Shown: positions 4,045 through 56,239 of the stretch, in pieces
Layout: each line of letters opens with the position of its first letter
Numbering within the stretch: position 1 is the stretch's first letter
Origin: Streptacidiphilus pinicola
Lineage (GTDB): Bacteria; Actinomycetota; Actinomycetes; Streptomycetales; Streptomycetaceae
DNA length: 64,000 bases
Assembly: GCF_003258295.1 (NCBI RefSeq)
Contig: NZ_QKYN01000008.1
Span: forward strand, 1-64,000
Reading direction: 5' to 3'
The notes under the pieces: model-generated
The model's input: the letters and a program-made list of their open reading frames with translations, nothing else
What the model was told of the DNA's origin: nothing
The model's database searches: none
Program-made: the position numbers and the translations under genes

Positions 4045-4581
4045 TTACGGGCGTCCCGCTCCGGCACCCGACGCAGCCTGCGTGGCCGTGCCGCCCTGCG
4101 TGGCGGTCTGCGCGCCGCAGCGCTGCTCGGTGCGCAGGCGGCGGGTGACCTCGCCGAGGCCCTCCGCGAGGTGGGTGAGCTGCTCGGGGGTGAGCACGTC
4201 GATCAGCGCGTTCCGGACCGCCTCGACATGGCCGGGCGCGGCGAAACGCAGCACCTCCCGGCCCCGCTCGGTGATCTCGGCGAAGACTCCGCGCACGTCG
4301 CTGGGACAGGAGCGGCGTGAGACCAGCCCGGCGCGTTCCAGCTGGGTGATCTGGTAGGTCAGGCCGCTCTTGGAGGTGACCAGGCGGTCGGCGAGCTCGG
4401 TCATCCGCAGCGCGCCGTCCGCGGCGGCGTTGAGCTGCACCAGTACCTCGTACTGGGTGTGCGAGAGCCCCGCGTCGTCCTTGAGCTGCTGCTCCAGCTT
4501 GCGGTTGACCAGGTTGGTGGCGGTGAGGAAGGCGATCCAGGCGGCCCTCTCGCCCTCGTCCAGCCAGCGGGGTTCAGTCAT
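4045..4581 (-). CDS. MarR-family transcriptional regulator
   Basis: The 178-residue protein is a standard MarR winged helix. It has an N-terminal dimerisation helix, a recognition region (about 60-100, LRMTELADRLVTSKSGLTYQITQLERAGLV), a wing (RRSCPSDVRGVFAEITERG) and C-terminal helices. The tail is rich in Ala, Gly, Thr and Gln. The ATG at 4581 fits the family N-terminus, and the gene overlaps the end of the PKS gene by 8 nt. A GTTAAAATTTGAAC palindrome lies 20 nt upstream of the start, inside the PKS 3' end. Near copies lie in the PKS/ribA promoter and before the distant dioxygenase gene at 55457. Autoregulation and control of those genes is inferred, with a phenolic ligand plausible for this family. 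Confidence 0.88.
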   Translation of the reverse strand: MTEPRWLDEGERAAWIAFLTATNLVNRKLEQQLKDDAGLSHTQYEVLVQLNAAADGALRMTELADRLVTSKSGLTYQITQLERAGLVSRRSCPSDVRGVFAEITERGREVLRFAAPGHVEAVRNALIDVLTPEQLTHLAEGLGEVTRRLRTEQRCGAQTATQGGTATQAASGAGAGRP

Positions 4582-5716
4582 GCTTCGAGAATACTCCGTT
4601 GTTAAAATTTGAACCACCATCGACGGTCGCGGGCGCTTCCACGCACCGCAGCCGGGCGGCCTCGATCGTGACGCCGGGGCCGATCGAGAGCATCAGCCCC
4701 TCCTCGCCGGGCTGCGGCCCGGCCGGGTCGTCGAGCGTGCGGGCGAGTACGTCCAGGACGGAGACCGAGCTCATGTTGCCCCACTCGCGCAAGGAGTCCC
4801 AGGAGTGCCGCAGCGTCTCGCGGTCGCAGTCCAGCACGCTCGCGGTCCGCTCGAGGATGGCCGGACCGCCGTGGTGGGCGACGACGAAGGCCGGCGGCGT
4901 CGGGCGCCGTCCGAGCCAGGGAGAGAGGTGCGGGGCGGCCTTGAGGATCGCGTAGGGGGCCTCGGCGGTGGAGGTGAACCCGATGTGACCGGTCGGCTCG
5001 TCGACCGTCAGCCGGTAGTCCTCCGCGGTGTCGGGCACGAGCAGCTCCAGGGGATCGGACAGCTCCACGGCCGGGCCGGGCCGGACGTCGTCCGTGTCCG
5101 TGACGACCGCGGCGGCGACGCCGTCCCCGCCCAGGGCCTTGTAGATCATCGCGGGCATGCTGATGTTGCCCGGCTGGAAACTGATGCTGAACGCCTCGGC
5201 GGCCACGACCAGGATCCGGGCCCCGGGTTCGACCGCGATCTGCTCGCGCGCCCGGACCAGCCCGAAGAGGCCGCCGGCGCAGCCGATGGTCGCCACCGGC
5301 AGGCGCCGCACGGTCGGCCGCAGGCCCAGGCTGTGGATCAGCCGCGCGTCGACGCCCGGCATCACCCAGCCGGTGACGCTGGTGACGACCAGCGCGTCGA
5401 CGTCCTCCGGTGCCAATTGGGCGGCGGCCAGTGCGGACACCGCCGCGTCGTGCGCCAGGGCCGCCATCAGCTCGACGGTCTCCCGCCACAGGGCCGGGCC
5501 GGAGCCGACGGTGAACAGCTCCTTCGCGGGGCGCACGAAGGCGCGGGTCTCGACCCCGGTCGAGCGCATGACGCGCGCCGCGGCCTTCGGCACCAGGCCG
5601 GACTCGAACGCGGTGCCCGCGAGTTCGATCACCTCGTCGATGGTCGCGGTGTGCTGGGGCGCGCGGAAGACGGGCCGGTGCACCCGTACGGCGAAGTCTT
5701 CGGCTTCACGACGCAT
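4574..5716 (-). CDS. Type III polyketide synthase (chalcone/stilbene synthase-like)
   Basis: The 380-residue length is typical of the family. The catalytic triad is visible: Cys146 in ATIGCAGG, His281 in VAHHGGP (usually HPGG) and Asn314 in WGNMSSVS. Such homodimeric enzymes condense malonyl-CoA units on a CoA starter to make pyrones, resorcinols or tetrahydroxynaphthalene. Product cannot be read here. The ATG at 5716 is chosen because GAAAGGAC sits at good spacing; an in-frame TTG 24 nt upstream has none. The gene leads an apparent PKS-marR-methyltransferase operon and diverges from ribA across a promoter holding two operator palindromes. Confidence 0.9.
   Translation of the reverse strand: MRREAEDFAVRVHRPVFRAPQHTATIDEVIELAGTAFESGLVPKAAARVMRSTGVETRAFVRPAKELFTVGSGPALWRETVELMAALAHDAAVSALAAAQLAPEDVDALVVTSVTGWVMPGVDARLIHSLGLRPTVRRLPVATIGCAGGLFGLVRAREQIAVEPGARILVVAAEAFSISFQPGNISMPAMIYKALGGDGVAAAVVTDTDDVRPGPAVELSDPLELLVPDTAEDYRLTVDEPTGHIGFTSTAEAPYAILKAAPHLSPWLGRRPTPPAFVVAHHGGPAILERTASVLDCDRETLRHSWDSLREWGNMSSVSVLDVLARTLDDPAGPQPGEEGLMLSIGPGVTIEAARLRCVEAPATVDGGSNFNNGVFSKHD
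4601..4614. promoter_or_regulatory. Operator-like palindrome before marR, inside the PKS 3' end
   Basis: GTTAAAATTTGAAC is palindromic except for one base pair. On the minus strand a TATTCT -10-like hexamer (4589-4594) lies between it and the marR ATG, so the site would cover the upstream promoter half. It encodes the Ser-Asn-Phe-Asn-Asn end of the PKS, so it serves both coding and, probably, regulation. It matches the sites at 5901, 5942 and 55424. Confidence 0.6.
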
Positions 5717-5900
5717 GCTGTGTCCTTTCTCCCGCCGCAACCCTCTCCATGGTGACGGATGCTCGCGTTCCGGGTGCCCCGAACGCGGAATCGAGTGATC
5801 CGTTTCATCCCAAGTCCGGCTTCGCGGAATACCCCTGCCGCGGCGCGGGTTCCTGTCACCGTCTCGATCCGGGCGGGGACGACGGGGCGGAAAAGCCGTT

Positions 5901-5914
5901 GTTCAAATTTGAAG
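5901..5914. promoter_or_regulatory. Operator-like palindrome, upstream site of the PKS/ribA divergent promoter
   Basis: GTTCAAATTTGAAG is a perfect inverted repeat except for its outermost pair. It lies within a likely ribA promoter: TTGTTC at 5899-5904, a 17-nt spacer, and TAGTGT at 5922-5927. A bound regulator would cover the -35 and spacer. Its centre is 41 bp, about four helical turns, from the second copy. Confidence 0.65.
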
Positions 5915-5941
5915 CACGGTGTAGTGTCGGGACGTCGCTTG

Positions 5942-5955
5942 GTTCAAATTGGAAC
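5942..5955. promoter_or_regulatory. Operator-like palindrome, downstream site in the ribA leader
   Basis: GTTCAAATTGGAAC is palindromic but for one pair. It lies downstream of the proposed ribA -10 (5922-5927), near the transcription start and 26 nt before the ribA ATG. Together with the upstream copy it would bracket the start site, a layout suited to cooperative repression. Confidence 0.65.
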
Positions 5956-5980: not shown

Positions 5981-6619
5981 ATGACTGTGATCCCCGAGGC
6001 GACGGTCCGTACCCGCGTCCGCGTCCCGCTGCGGTTCGGCGACGGATACAGCGTCGACTCCGAGCTGGTCACCTTCCACGGCCTGGTCGACGGCCAGGAG
6101 CACCTCGCCGTCGTCCTCGGCGAGCCGCACGCCGCCGAGACCCCGCTGGTCCGGCTGCACTCCGAGTGCCTCACCGGCGACGTCTTCGGCTCCGCCCGCT
6201 GCGACTGCGGCCCCCAGCTGCGCGAGGCCGTCGAGCGCATCGCCCACCGCGGCGGCTACCTGCTCTACCTGCGCCAGGAGGGCCGCGGCATCGGCCTGTA
6301 CAACAAGCTCGACGCCTACGCGCTGCAGGACCAGGGCTACGACACCTACGAGGCGAACGCCGCCCTCGGCCTCCCGGAGGACGGCCGCGACTACACGGCC
6401 GCCGCCCAGATGCTCGCCGCCCTCGGCGTCGGCAGCGTCGACCTGCTCTCCAACAACCCGGACAAGGCCGAGCAGCTCCGCGAGCTGGGTGTCCCGATCC
6501 GCGACCGCGTCCCGACCGGCGTGCACGCCACCCGGCACAACCTCCGCTACCTCCGTGCCAAGGTCGAGCACACCCAGCACACCATCACCCTGGACTCCCT
6601 GACCGGGCTGGCCGGCTGA
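5981..6619 (+). CDS. ribA: GTP cyclohydrolase II
   Basis: The 212-residue protein matches the stand-alone GTP cyclohydrolase II family. It has the zinc ligands in HSECLTGD and FGSARCDCG (three Cys), the RQEGRGIG substrate loop, an AAQML-LGV region, and the SNNP-K end of the fold. It opens GTP to 2,5-diamino-6-ribosylamino-4-pyrimidinone 5'-phosphate and formate, the first riboflavin step. The ATG at 5981 follows a weak GGAG. It is not beside other rib genes; it diverges from the PKS-marR operon under operator-like sites. It may therefore be a regulated paralogue serving flavin demand or a GTP-derived product rather than the housekeeping copy. Confidence 0.92.
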   Translation: MTVIPEATVRTRVRVPLRFGDGYSVDSELVTFHGLVDGQEHLAVVLGEPHAAETPLVRLHSECLTGDVFGSARCDCGPQLREAVERIAHRGGYLLYLRQEGRGIGLYNKLDAYALQDQGYDTYEANAALGLPEDGRDYTAAAQMLAALGVGSVDLLSNNPDKAEQLRELGVPIRDRVPTGVHATRHNLRYLRAKVEHTQHTITLDSLTGLAG

Positions 6620-52295: not shown

Positions 52296-53714
52296 ATGAT
52301 CGGACGAACGGCTGCGCACGCCCTCGCCGCCGCGCTGCTCGCGGGCACGGCGGGCCTCGGCGCGGCCGGCTGCCCGAGTGGCGCCCCCGTCGCGAACGTC
52401 GCGGACGTTGCGATCGGACGCGCCGTCCTCGCGCCGCTGCCCGCCGGGCTGGTGGGCCTCTCCTTCGAGAGCGACTCCGCCACGGGCGGACTCGACAGCG
52501 GGCGCTTCGACGCCGGCGGCAACCTCCCCGCGCTGCTGCGCACGCTCGGGCCCGGCACGATGCGGTTCGGCGGCAACTCCGTCGACCTGGGCTTCCACGG
52601 CGCGAGCCGGGCCGCGCTCGCCGGAGTGCGCCGGCTCGCCGACGAGAGCGGCTGGCAGGTGCGCTACAGCGAGAACCTCGGCCACTACGACGCGGCCGCG
52701 ACGGCTGCCGACGCCGCGGCGGCCGCTGCCGCCCTGGGGCCCCGGTTGCGGGCGCTGGCCTGCGGGAACGAGCCCAACCTCTACCCGGGCGTGTTGCGCC
52801 GGGAAGACTTCGACATCGTCGCGTACCTCGCCGAGGCCATGCCCTGTTGGCGCGTGCTGCACCGGGCCGCCCCCGGCGTGCCCGTCGCCGGGCCCGACGC
52901 CGCCCCGCCGGTCTGGCAGGCTGCGGCCGCCTTCGCGCCGTCCCGGCCGCTGGCGCAGCTCACGGCGCACTACTACCCGCTCACCCACTGCGGTCGGCAC
53001 CCCGGCAACGGCGGCACGCTGCTCAGCGCCGCCACCCGGGACCGGCAGGGGCAGTACTTCGCGAGTGTGGGGGCCACCGCCCGCGCCGCACGGCTGCCCT
53101 GGGCGCTGACCGAGACCAACTCGGCGTCCTGCTCCGGCATCCCCGGCACCAGCAACACCTTCGCCGCCGCGCTCTGGTCGGTGGACTACGCGCTCCAGGC
53201 GGCCGAGCACGGGGCACAGGAGGTCGACTTCCACACCTCCGTCAGCCCGCGTTGCGTCCCCTACACGGCGCTGTGTCCGACGGCGCCGCGGCACTTCGCG
53301 CCCCGACCCCTCTACTACGGACTGCTGCTGCTCCGTCTCCTCGGGCCCGGCGAGTTGCTGCCTGCCACCCTGACCGACTTCCGGGGGCCGGTCACCGTCC
53401 ACGCGCTGCGCTCCGCGGACGGAGCGCAGCGCCTGGTGCTGGAGAACCTCGGACCGGACCCGGTCGGGATACGGACGCCCGCCCCGGCGGCGGGCCGGAC
53501 CGCTCTCGGCTGGCGCCTCGCTGCACCCGGTGGACCGACGGCGACCACGGGCGTCACCGTCAACGGCCGCACGGTCGCGGCGGACGGGACTTTCGCGGCG
53601 CCGCCGCCGCTGCGGGTGGCGTGCGCGGCCGACGCATGCCGGCTGCCCCTGCCGGGCTACTCCGCGACGGTGTTGGTCCTCCCCGCGGGTGCGGCCGGCC
53701 AGTCGAAGCGGTAG
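52296..53714 (+). CDS. GH79-like glycoside hydrolase lipoprotein
   Basis: The ATG at 52296 opens a lipoprotein signal (lipobox GAAGC), giving 472 residues. The barrel shows GLSFESDSATGG, RFGGNSVDLGF, a probable acid/base Glu in CGNEPNLY and a probable nucleophile Glu in ALTETNSASCSG. Spacing and context match beta-glucuronidase/heparanase-like GH79 enzymes. A C-terminal beta-sandwich follows (VLENLGPDPVGIRTPAP and later). It probably acts on glucuronides at the cell surface. The 3' end overlaps the convergent arylsulfotransferase gene by 58 nt. Confidence 0.78.
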   Translation: MIGRTAAHALAAALLAGTAGLGAAGCPSGAPVANVADVAIGRAVLAPLPAGLVGLSFESDSATGGLDSGRFDAGGNLPALLRTLGPGTMRFGGNSVDLGFHGASRAALAGVRRLADESGWQVRYSENLGHYDAAATAADAAAAAAALGPRLRALACGNEPNLYPGVLRREDFDIVAYLAEAMPCWRVLHRAAPGVPVAGPDAAPPVWQAAAAFAPSRPLAQLTAHYYPLTHCGRHPGNGGTLLSAATRDRQGQYFASVGATARAARLPWALTETNSASCSGIPGTSNTFAAALWSVDYALQAAEHGAQEVDFHTSVSPRCVPYTALCPTAPRHFAPRPLYYGLLLLRLLGPGELLPATLTDFRGPVTVHALRSADGAQRLVLENLGPDPVGIRTPAPAAGRTALGWRLAAPGGPTATTGVTVNGRTVAADGTFAAPPPLRVACAADACRLPLPGYSATVLVLPAGAAGQSKR

Positions 53715-54922
53715 GCGCGGTAGCTGTTGACCCCGGACGGGAACGACGCGTTGAAGACGAGCTTGCCCGAGCGGTCGAACTCGGAGACGTACGGCAGCGC
53801 GCCCCAGCCGACGAGCAGACCGCCGTCGCGCAGCGGCTGCGCGTCGCCCTGGGAGGTGGCGCTGAGGCCGGAGGGCTGGTCGTCCGCGTGCTCGAGGGTC
53901 GCGGTGCGGGTGCGGAAGTCGAGCCGGACGGTGACGGCCCGGCTGTAGGGCAGTTCGGCGACCGCGCCGGAACCGGTGTTGGCCTGGCCCGCGGCCTCGT
54001 TGTCGAAGAAGGTGTAGCGGCCGTCGCCGAGCGGCTCCGGGTCGTGCTGCCAGGCGAAGATCCGTCCGGCGCTGTTCAGGGCCTCCCCGTGAGCGGCCGT
54101 CAGCTTGAACGTGCTGGCCTTGCCGCCCAGCTGCCACAGGATCCGGCCGGTGCGGTGCGAGATCTCGTAGGCGGTCCAGGTGTTGCGTGCGTCGACCAGC
54201 AGCCTGCCCTGACCGTCCACCTTGACGGCGTTGATGTGGAACCAGTCCCACGGCGTGTCGGGGGAGGCGGGCAGCGGCTGCTCGCTCTGGGCGTAGGGCA
54301 CGTGGTCCGCGCTGTTCCACTCGAACAGCACCTTGCCGGTGCGGATGTCGACCTCCTGGACGATGCCGTCGAGCACCTTCTGGTGCGCCGAGCCGCCGAG
54401 GGAGCGCAGGTCCGCGGTGCGCACGGTGTAGGCCGGGATCAGCGCGGTGTTCCACGGGGTGATCAGGAACTCGTGGCCGTCGGCCGCATAGCCGTGACCG
54501 GCGCGGACGGTCGCGATGCGGCGGTAGTGGTCGTCGTAGACGTAGTCGACGCCCTTCGCGGCGCCGCCGAGGCCCGTGCCCTGCCACCAGGTCAGCACCG
54601 GCCGCCCGTGGTAGGTCTGCTGGCGGAAGTCGGCCGCCTCCTGCCGGGCGGGCGCGGCGTGCGACCAGACGACCTTGCGGCCGTCCGGGCTGAGGATCTC
54701 CACACCGCTGCCGTAGCGGGAGTTGGCGGAGCTGGGGGCGACGAAGAGGTCGCCGTGTTCGGCGCCGGGCTTCTCGGTCAGCACGGACAGGGTCGGCAAC
54801 GGTGGGGTGGCGGTGGCCGGCGCGGTCGGCGTGGCCGAGGCGGTGGTGGGCAGCAGTGTCACGAGCGCGGCGCTCGCGGCGAGGGCCGCGGCGTGGGTGC
54901 GTGCAGGGGTGAAGGTGCGCAT
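53657..54922 (-). CDS. Secreted arylsulfotransferase (ASST)-family protein
   Basis: The 421-residue protein has a signal peptide (cleaved near TTASA) and a six-bladed propeller-type sequence. Histidine motifs are present: DGHEFLITPWNTAL, WDWFHINAVKVD and AWQHDPEPLGDG, then FDNEAAG. ASST enzymes move sulfate between phenols through a sulfo-histidine, without PAPS. The ATG at 54922 follows AAAGGAG. A Cys-rich leader peptide 150 nt upstream on the same strand suggests control by cysteine or sulfur supply. This type of propeller has varied substrates, so activity is probable but not certain. Confidence 0.8.
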   Translation of the reverse strand: MRTFTPARTHAAALAASAALVTLLPTTASATPTAPATATPPLPTLSVLTEKPGAEHGDLFVAPSSANSRYGSGVEILSPDGRKVVWSHAAPARQEAADFRQQTYHGRPVLTWWQGTGLGGAAKGVDYVYDDHYRRIATVRAGHGYAADGHEFLITPWNTALIPAYTVRTADLRSLGGSAHQKVLDGIVQEVDIRTGKVLFEWNSADHVPYAQSEQPLPASPDTPWDWFHINAVKVDGQGRLLVDARNTWTAYEISHRTGRILWQLGGKASTFKLTAAHGEALNSAGRIFAWQHDPEPLGDGRYTFFDNEAAGQANTGSGAVAELPYSRAVTVRLDFRTRTATLEHADDQPSGLSATSQGDAQPLRDGGLLVGWGALPYVSEFDRSGKLVFNASFPSGVNSYRAYRFDWPAAPAGRTNTVAE

Positions 54923-55266: not shown

Positions 55267-55395
55267 CTACTTGGGGGCGAGGCCCTGCTCACGCAGCCAG
55301 GCGAGCCGGCGCGGGGCGGTCGAGCCGCAGCCGCCGCCCTGGCTGGTGCCGGTGACGATCACCCGCTCCGGATCGACCTGCGGCAGCGCGCGGGC
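55267..55395 (-). pseudogene. Fragment of an acetylxylan-esterase/deacetylase-like hydrolase
   Basis: A minus-strand frame ending at 55267 reads RALPQVDPERVIVTGTSQGGG, the nucleophile elbow region of cephalosporin-C deacetylase/acetylxylan esterases, then an unrelated-looking RRLAWLREQGLAPK tail. Neither the rest of the hydrolase fold nor a start is present. It is a decayed fragment between the leader peptide and the dioxygenase promoter. Confidence 0.5.
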
Positions 55396-55423
55396 GGGGG
55401 TTCGGTGGAGTAGTCTGGAAGTA

Positions 55424-55437
55424 GTTCAGATTTGAAC
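55424..55437. promoter_or_regulatory. MarR-type operator palindrome before the DODA dioxygenase gene
   Basis: GTTCAGATTTGAAC is palindromic except for one pair, and differs by one base from the consensus of the three sites near marR. It lies 20 nt before the dioxygenase ATG and just downstream of a TAGTCT -10-like hexamer (55411-55416), so binding would cover the transcription start. Confidence 0.6.
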
Positions 55438-55456: not shown

Positions 55457-56239
55457 ATGACGACCGCCACGCCGGGGAGGATGCCGGCCCTCTACCTGGG
55501 CCACGGCGCTCCGCCGCTCGCCGACGACGCCCTGTGGACGGGCCAGCTCGCCGACTGGTCGGCGGGCCTGCCCAAGCCCAAGGCGGTCCTGATGATCTCC
55601 GCCCACTGGGAGGAGGCGCCGCTCGCCCTCGGCGCCACCACGACCGTCCCGCTGGTCTACGACTTCTGGGGCTTCCCGCAGCACTACTACGAGGTCACCT
55701 ACGCCGCCCCCGGCGCATCCGAGCTCGCCGAGTCCGTCCGCAAGCTGCTGCGCGGCGCCGGCACGCCCGTCCAGGACATCCCGGACCGCGGCCTCGACCA
55801 CGGCGCCTACGTCCCGCTCGTCGAGATGTACCCCGACGCCGACGTTCCGGTGCTCCAGGTCTCCATGCCGACGCTCGACCCGACCGAGCTGATGCGGATC
55901 GGCCGCAAGCTCGCACCGCTGCGCGACGAGGGCGTGCTGATCGTCGGCAGCGGGTTCTTCACGCACAACCTGCGCGCCCTCACCCAGGACGGCAGCGTCC
56001 ACTCGATCATGGCCGAGTTCGACGACTGGGGCCGCCGCGCCCTCGAGGCCCAGGACATCGACGCGCTGCTCGACTTCGAGCAAAAGGCGCCGGCCGGTCA
56101 CCTCGCCCACCCGCGCACGGAGCACTTCGCCCCGCTCTTCGTCACCCTCGGCGCCTCCGAGAACGAGCTCGGCAGCGGCCGCAGCGTCATCGACGGCTTC
56201 TGGATGGGCCTGTCCAAGCGCTCCCTCCAGTTCGGCTGA
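55457..56239 (+). CDS. DODA-type extradiol aromatic ring-opening dioxygenase
   Basis: The 260-residue protein has the LigB-superfamily histidines: LGHGAPP near the N-terminus, ISAHWEE, GLDHGAYVPL and a late RTEHFAPLF. The family opens catechol-type rings with Fe(II) or Zn. The ATG at 55457 follows GAGGAAG. A palindrome at 55424 matches the operators near the marR gene about 50 kb away, suggesting induction by a phenolic or quinone compound. The neighbouring genes show no complete aromatic pathway. Confidence 0.88.
   Translation: MTTATPGRMPALYLGHGAPPLADDALWTGQLADWSAGLPKPKAVLMISAHWEEAPLALGATTTVPLVYDFWGFPQHYYEVTYAAPGASELAESVRKLLRGAGTPVQDIPDRGLDHGAYVPLVEMYPDADVPVLQVSMPTLDPTELMRIGRKLAPLRDEGVLIVGSGFFTHNLRALTQDGSVHSIMAEFDDWGRRALEAQDIDALLDFEQKAPAGHLAHPRTEHFAPLFVTLGASENELGSGRSVIDGFWMGLSKRSLQFG

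Follow-up and report, generated by a model that had tools for sequence, protein, structure and literature searches.

The 14-mer GTTCAGATTTGAAC at positions 55424–55437 is, with a probability that we put at roughly three in four, an operator of the MarR protein encoded at 4045–4581. On this reading the extradiol dioxygenase gene that follows it, dodA, has been split from its ancestral neighbour and would be repressed together with marR and ribA until an aromatic or quinone-like inducer is present. The window referred to below is the whole stretch of Streptacidiphilus pinicola DNA that was analysed, 64,000 nucleotides long. That marR, ribA and dodA make up a single MarR regulon, as the preliminary description of this DNA proposed, is strongly supported by comparative genomics.

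The dodA operator was identified by a motif scan of the genome and by its invariance in promoters of the genus. It has no assigned strand, differs by one base from the consensus GTTCAAATTTGAAC in the window sequence, and is separated by 19 nt from the ATG of dodA. This gene (55457–56239, plus strand) encodes P0002, a LigB-family extradiol dioxygenase of 260 residues (PF02900, E = 1.2e-30). The position of the site, as first described, is confirmed. A candidate −10 hexamer, TAGTCT, was predicted by eye at 55411–55416 on the plus strand. It aligns with TA..CT hexamers in four of the five sister dodA promoters, the exception being that of G074, and it places the start of transcription plausibly, again by eye, at about 55422–55424. 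Since only 7 nt separate the hexamer from the operator, the operator may cover the transcription start; the earlier statement that it does so is therefore plausible as a prediction by eye rather than a mapping.

All 14 bases of the dodA operator are invariant in the six genus dodA promoters that could be aligned, our own included, and the non-coding sequence around it is poorly conserved. A second, inverted copy lies upstream of dodA in three of the six (G042, G046 and G074), and a single copy is found in the window, G054 and G062. The remaining two dodA genes of the genus, in G002 and G030, stand behind ribA. Directly upstream of the dodA promoter in the window is a short open frame on the minus strand (55271–55400, ending ...VIVTGTSQGGGCGSTAPRRLAWLREQGLAPK), which may be the tail of a gene broken at a rearrangement point, and an arylsulfotransferase (ASST)-family gene is also found upstream of dodA (53657–54922, minus strand).

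The window contains four places that match the motif with three mismatches or fewer, corresponding to eight rows on the two strands. Shuffled windows are expected to give 0.56 rows, and none of 100 shuffles reached eight. In the complete 8.43-Mb genome there are likewise four places within one mismatch of GTTCAAATTTGAAC, and all of them are in the window: one before marR (4601), two before ribA (5901 and 5942) and one before dodA (55424). A fifth place, with two mismatches, is at C269:13491 before a VOC gene. The looser core TTCRAATYYGAA, at one mismatch or fewer, gave additional scattered matches elsewhere in the genome, mostly of TTCG type. The dodA palindrome is short and imperfect, and we identified no gene for a regulator beside dodA in the window, as would be expected if it were a chance match or an element unconnected with MarR. 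This is nevertheless very improbable: a reversed control pattern has no match in the 8.43-Mb genome, against the four sites found with the true one, and together with the shuffles and the retention of all 14 bases in six genomes this led us to reject a chance match.

The other three sites are clustered at one locus. The marR gene (4045–4581, minus strand) encodes the regulator P0001, of 178 residues, which was matched to PF01047 in a scan from an in-frame start further upstream. Its operator, GTTAAAATTTGAAC (4601–4614, no strand), lies 19 nt before the marR start and, as a correction to the preliminary description, also within the last codons of a type III polyketide synthase (PKS) gene; an identical 14-mer is present in G054, G062 and G042. 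The PKS gene (4574–5716, minus strand) overlaps marR by 8 nt and encodes P0003, of 380 residues (PF00195/PF02797), whose nearest solved structure is 1u0m. Two operators located by the genome scan lie between it and ribA. The first, GTTCAAATTTGAAG (5901–5914, no strand), overlaps a candidate −35 element, TTGTTC, at 5899–5904, and the second, GTTCAAATTGGAAC (5942–5955, no strand), is downstream of a candidate −10 element, TAGTGT, at 5922–5927 and 25 nt before ribA, both promoter elements having been picked out by eye. The ribA gene (5981–6619, plus strand) encodes P0004, a GTP cyclohydrolase II of 212 residues, which passes the family models PF00925 (E = 3.7e-58; 196.2 bits, cut-off 23.3) and NF001591 (277.5 bits, cut-off 148) and scores 202.1, just below the cut-off of 205.85, against TIGR00505.

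The products of marR, ribA, dodA and the PKS gene were each used as queries against 200 genomes of the family, and the motif was looked for in 14 genomes of the genus and 25 chosen other genomes. Sites within one mismatch are present in ten of the 14 genus genomes, our own included. In the same ten, marR is matched closely (E no higher than 1e-74) and ribA at E 1e-70, and eight have dodA. In the other four there is no site within one mismatch and no such ribA or dodA, and the MarR matches are all distant (E 3e-29 to 3e-31). This bears on the possibility that the reader of the dodA site is not P0001 but a different protein of the same genome, of MarR or AbsC-like type. Such proteins are plentiful: the MarR family model has at least 81 matches there, 150 of 304 candidates having been scored, and genome G037 retains a related operator before a VOC gene without having a P0001 orthologue. 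The joint absence of P0001 and of the sites from four genus genomes speaks against this explanation, as does the recognition helix: 30 of the 81 loci were examined, 14 of them align with the helix of P0001 (E < 1e-3), and P0001 is the only one of Tyr type, the next best own-genome MarR (L029, 33% identity) having His at that place. We therefore consider another reader unlikely.

Sites were counted in 31 genomes, namely the ten of the genus and 21 of the 25 others; G022 and G166 were outside this census, and the scan of the 25 gave no motif sites in G111 and G051. Within the census, 82 of 108 sites fall in the 450 bp that precede marR, ribA or dodA. A site precedes ribA in all 31 genomes, marR in 28 of 31 and dodA in 19 of 23. 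The three marR genes with no site within one mismatch are those of G074, where there is one at two mismatches only, G119 and G150. Three of the four dodA genes that have no site (in G002, G030 and G131) are behind ribA. The fourth is in G119, which has both marR and dodA and no site within one mismatch before either, a looser pattern finding one before its marR.

The arrangement of the three genes varies much more than their association with operators. Many g14 genomes have marR and dodA side by side in divergent orientation, with 89–151 bp between them in 18 such loci, and ribA is in many of these genomes on another contig or megabases from marR, accompanied by operators. A ribA-dodA pair stands opposite marR in G002, G030 and G131, while in G054, G062, G042 and G046 marR faces ribA, and dodA is elsewhere with an operator of its own. 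In G074 the three genes are separated (231 kb) along a single contig, again with operators that go with the genes. Thus where the genes lie apart in relatives, the operators mostly travel with them, and it is well supported by these sequence comparisons that the regulon is older than the gene layout of the window. The dodA 14-mer recurs between neighbouring marR and dodA genes in Streptacidiphilus sp. ASG 303 (L240). Given this, and the adjacency of the two genes in relatives, the 50-kb gap in the window is best read as a neighbour pair that has been split. It is worth adding that G051, which belongs to another genus and has no operator within one mismatch anywhere, contains a ribA 89% identical to that of the window (L201; G051:C21:123498–124130); transfer without the regulator is possible.

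The remaining 26 of the 108 sites are away from marR, ribA and dodA. Many of them precede VOC, DoxX, MDMPI/TIGR03086, YceI or TIGR01777-type genes, of whose products ten were checked with Pfam and the others named by resemblance. A YceI gene is downstream of a site in G089; we take the polyisoprenoid-binding type represented by SCO5533, discussed below, to be YceI. In L145, L150, L192 and L193, divergent genes that look like DoxX and MDMPI/TIGR03086 have a pair of operators between them, and in L145 a hemerythrin-domain gene is behind the MDMPI/TIGR03086-like gene; the Pfam checks of this pair cover L183 and L145. No candidate gene was found for the site at G162:C1:118944.

Membership of the VOC gene is less certain. 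Its upstream operator has two mismatches in six of the 14 genus genomes and three in G074, and is absent in seven. G037 is among the six, yet it lacks this MarR: locus L285 has GTTCAAATTCGAAT 83 bp before the start region of the VOC gene, and close marR, ribA and dodA matches are absent from the genome. Another regulator may read related sites there, or the operator may be a relic. The mismatches, the case of G037 and the seven absences weaken the VOC gene as a firm member of the regulon. The seven genus genomes with no MarR operator upstream of the VOC gene (L289 and L291–L296) share another palindrome-like element before it, noted by eye as GAATA(C/G)TTTCC(TG/CA)GGAAG, as if the gene there were under another regulator.

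The position of the PKS gene raises the question of whether the regulator serves a polyketide pathway, with a phenolic PKS intermediate as inducer and the product cleaved by the dioxygenase. The overlap of the PKS gene with marR and the presence of the operators at 5901 and 5942 upstream of its start would fit such an arrangement. The distribution of the PKS does not. At E 1e-60 it has relatives in seven of the 200 family genomes (our own, G074 with 72% identity, and five others with 39–45%), it is found at the marR locus in our own genome only, and none of the other six is on a contig on which the marR of that genome or an operator was found. The operators of marR, ribA and dodA and the pairing of the genes persist without a PKS from Streptacidiphilus to Nocardia and Glycomyces. 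We therefore reject the view that the system centres on the PKS, and judge a polyketide-centred regulator improbable, slightly more so than a second MarR protein acting at dodA. The original proposal that one regulator links synthesis of a phenolic polyketide to ring cleavage is accordingly unsupported as the purpose of the system, and that the PKS product is phenolic is in any case an assumption.

The PKS gene is probably not a fresh insertion in our own genome alone. Short matches to its 3′ end are present between the marR and ribA operators in G054 (L113, score 34) and G042 (L117, score 29), and none of 2000 dinucleotide shuffles reached the score in either genome. In G062, 1439 of 2000 such shuffles reached the score, and no relic is recognised. 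With single-letter shuffles of the whole spacer the score of G054 exceeds the maximum of 300 shuffles (31), that of G042 is below the corresponding value (33), and G062 and G046 give nothing. These relics suggest that the PKS predates the split of the clade and was lost in sister genomes, and hence that it was probably present before our own genome split off. Here it may be under the control of this MarR, as a clade-specific passenger rather than what the regulon is about.

The MarR protein proposed to act on marR, ribA and dodA has relatives of solved structure. The best PDB hits of P0001 are 3zpl (E = 1.7e-34) and 3zmd (E = 4.8e-32), which are respectively SCO3205 and AbsC (SCO5405) of S. 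coelicolor (PMC3737563). By sequence P0001 is a member of the SCO3205/AbsC subfamily and not an orthologue proper of SCO3205: it is 44–46% identical to four SCO3205-type proteins, and it lacks the tail DLPW(L/T)R in which the SCO3205-type proteins examined end. The SCO3205 account (PMC3737563) describes in vitro binding to two operators in the interval between SCO3205 and the gene SCO3204, which encodes a class III extradiol dioxygenase; the KD values are 1.3 and 2.4 nM. It gives the operator consensus as TTnAAnnnTCAA and proposes autoregulation; the function of the protein was left unassigned by its authors in 2013. Another SCO3205 site is at SCO5533, which resembles a polyisoprenoid-binding periplasmic protein (PMC3737563). 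SCO3205 and P0001 are alike in having operators before an extradiol dioxygenase gene (the divergent SCO3204, and dodA) and the same Trp and His residues in the salicylate pocket. They differ in that SCO3205 has a TTG-type operator and His77, and P0001 a TTC-type operator and Tyr76. In the window, moreover, 50 kb separate marR from dodA, and the regulator is shared with ribA, a gene that is not named in the available text of that account. AbsC also has the salicylate pocket residues conserved, is linked to zinc-dependent antibiotic production and has a known site that matches the O3204 motif (PMC3737563). It has His in its SKSRLSHQ helix where P0001 has Tyr, and an operator before an extradiol dioxygenase gene is a feature of SCO3205 and P0001 that is not known for AbsC. 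The view that the present gene grouping is undescribed thus needs qualifying: operators shared by a MarR gene and an extradiol dioxygenase gene have been published (SCO3205/SCO3204, PMC3737563), while no paper on a regulon containing ribA was found in the part of the open-licence literature that was searched.

A working analogy is provided by MhqR of Bacillus subtilis and Staphylococcus aureus, a MarR repressor whose regulon includes ring-cleavage dioxygenases. The available accounts (PMC6798810, PMC12893000) report that its palindrome has TCGAA as the core, that Tyr69 is one of the residues predicted to contact bases, and that quinones release it without a thiol switch. By eye, Tyr69 matches Tyr76 of P0001. 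The MhqR targets named there include azoreductases, nitroreductases and other dioxygenases, with no LigB or RibA gene among them. LigB, VOC and DoxX genes follow our sites, and no quinone reductase gene was identified at the sites examined. In P0001 the salicylate-pocket pair corresponds to Trp15 and His118, which are kept in 136 and 137, respectively, of 137 MarR loci. Cys92 is kept in 127, and a thiol switch at this residue is disfavoured by the ten loci without Cys. For P0002 the nearest solved structures are a 4,5-DOPA dioxygenase (8in2) and E. coli YgiD (2pw6); its His16, His50, His115, His170 and His223 align with His residues of YgiD. Its score of 176.9 bits against NF007914 (4,5-DOPA extradiol dioxygenase/YgiD) is below the cut-off of 233, so that DOPA cleavage is not implied, and we assign it to the LigB family.

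The difference between His77 and Tyr76 is of interest because His77 of SCO3205 contacts the G of TTGA (PMC3737563), and P0001 has Tyr at this position and TTCA in its operators. We compared the residue with operator spelling in 137 MarR loci (131 distinct sequences), made up of 57 loci and a further 80 taken from at least 560 confirmed relatives; the two sets share some genomes (G042 and L203 are an example). The 260 bp upstream of each marR were scanned for palindromes of TTC type (TTCA....TGAA or TTCRA..TYGAA) and TTG type (TTGA....TCAA or TTGRA..TYCAA). The motifs were chosen on the first 57 loci, the 80 being fetched later, and the patterns were then widened to admit TTCGA and TTGGA. Of the 101 Tyr loci, 90 have a TTC-type site, none a TTG-type site and 11 neither; the marR of the window is one of the 11, its site at 4601 being changed by one base and its other sites lying beyond the PKS gene. 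The 36 His loci comprise 24 with TTG-type sites alone, two with both types, one with a TTC-type site alone (L279) and nine with neither. In a hand count with the strict patterns, TTCA....TGAA occurs at 68 of 101 Tyr loci (32/37 and 36/64 in the two sets), where TTGA....TCAA never does, and TTGA....TCAA occurs at 26 of 36 His loci (15/20 and 11/16), where TTCA....TGAA is found once (L279). The adjacent residue does not explain the pattern, as four of four Ser-Tyr loci have TTC and the sole Thr-His locus has TTG. G111 fits the same code, with a His-type MarR and no TTC-type site.

A Fisher test of Tyr/His against operator type ignores relatedness, and excludes the 20 loci without sites and the two with both. 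On a quick tree, in which 25 of 128 inner branches are starred, there are two changes of residue and three of operator. The correlation, which is possibly new, amounts to about two independent switches only, and these are too few independent pairs for a formal test. We consider the chances about even that this single helix residue (SCO3205 His77/P0001 Tyr76) sets TTGA....TCAA against TTCA....TGAA, in which case the kinds of target (dodA, ribA, YceI) would have been carried across and the regulon rewired by a matched change of protein residue and half-site base. A third type of MarR was seen in five g9 genomes (L194–L198), with its gene immediately before ribA and in the same orientation. It combines the ITRSR stretch of SCO3205-type proteins with Tyr, and the palindrome TTCAAGTTTGAA precedes marR in four of the five.

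On the basis of these observations we propose the following mechanism. In an ancestor marR would have stood beside its targets, whether dodA, ribA or a ribA-dodA pair, and a rearrangement, whose direction is a matter of inference, would have separated dodA, together with its operator, from marR by about 50 kb. When no inducer is present, a MarR dimer on the palindrome over the predicted dodA start would block transcription, and the same protein would repress marR and ribA as well. MarR would be released by an inducer of aromatic or quinone-like nature, most likely a phenolic acid bound in the conserved Trp15/His118 pocket, and this would induce the ring-opening dioxygenase and GTP cyclohydrolase II, through which the supply of flavin may rise. 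Here or in related genomes, VOC, DoxX, mycothiol-dependent-type and YceI proteins would be induced at the same time, and the outcome would be a response that detoxifies aromatic compounds or electrophiles.

The marR and dodA genes of the window look like the split relic of a repressor-enzyme module that is widespread in actinobacteria. What was a lone palindrome thereby becomes part of a conserved and testable actinobacterial regulon that includes a gene for a flavin precursor, and a comparative set of targets is on offer for SCO3205. The correlation of Tyr or His with C or G in the operator is directly testable on a protein whose complex with DNA has been solved (3ZPL).
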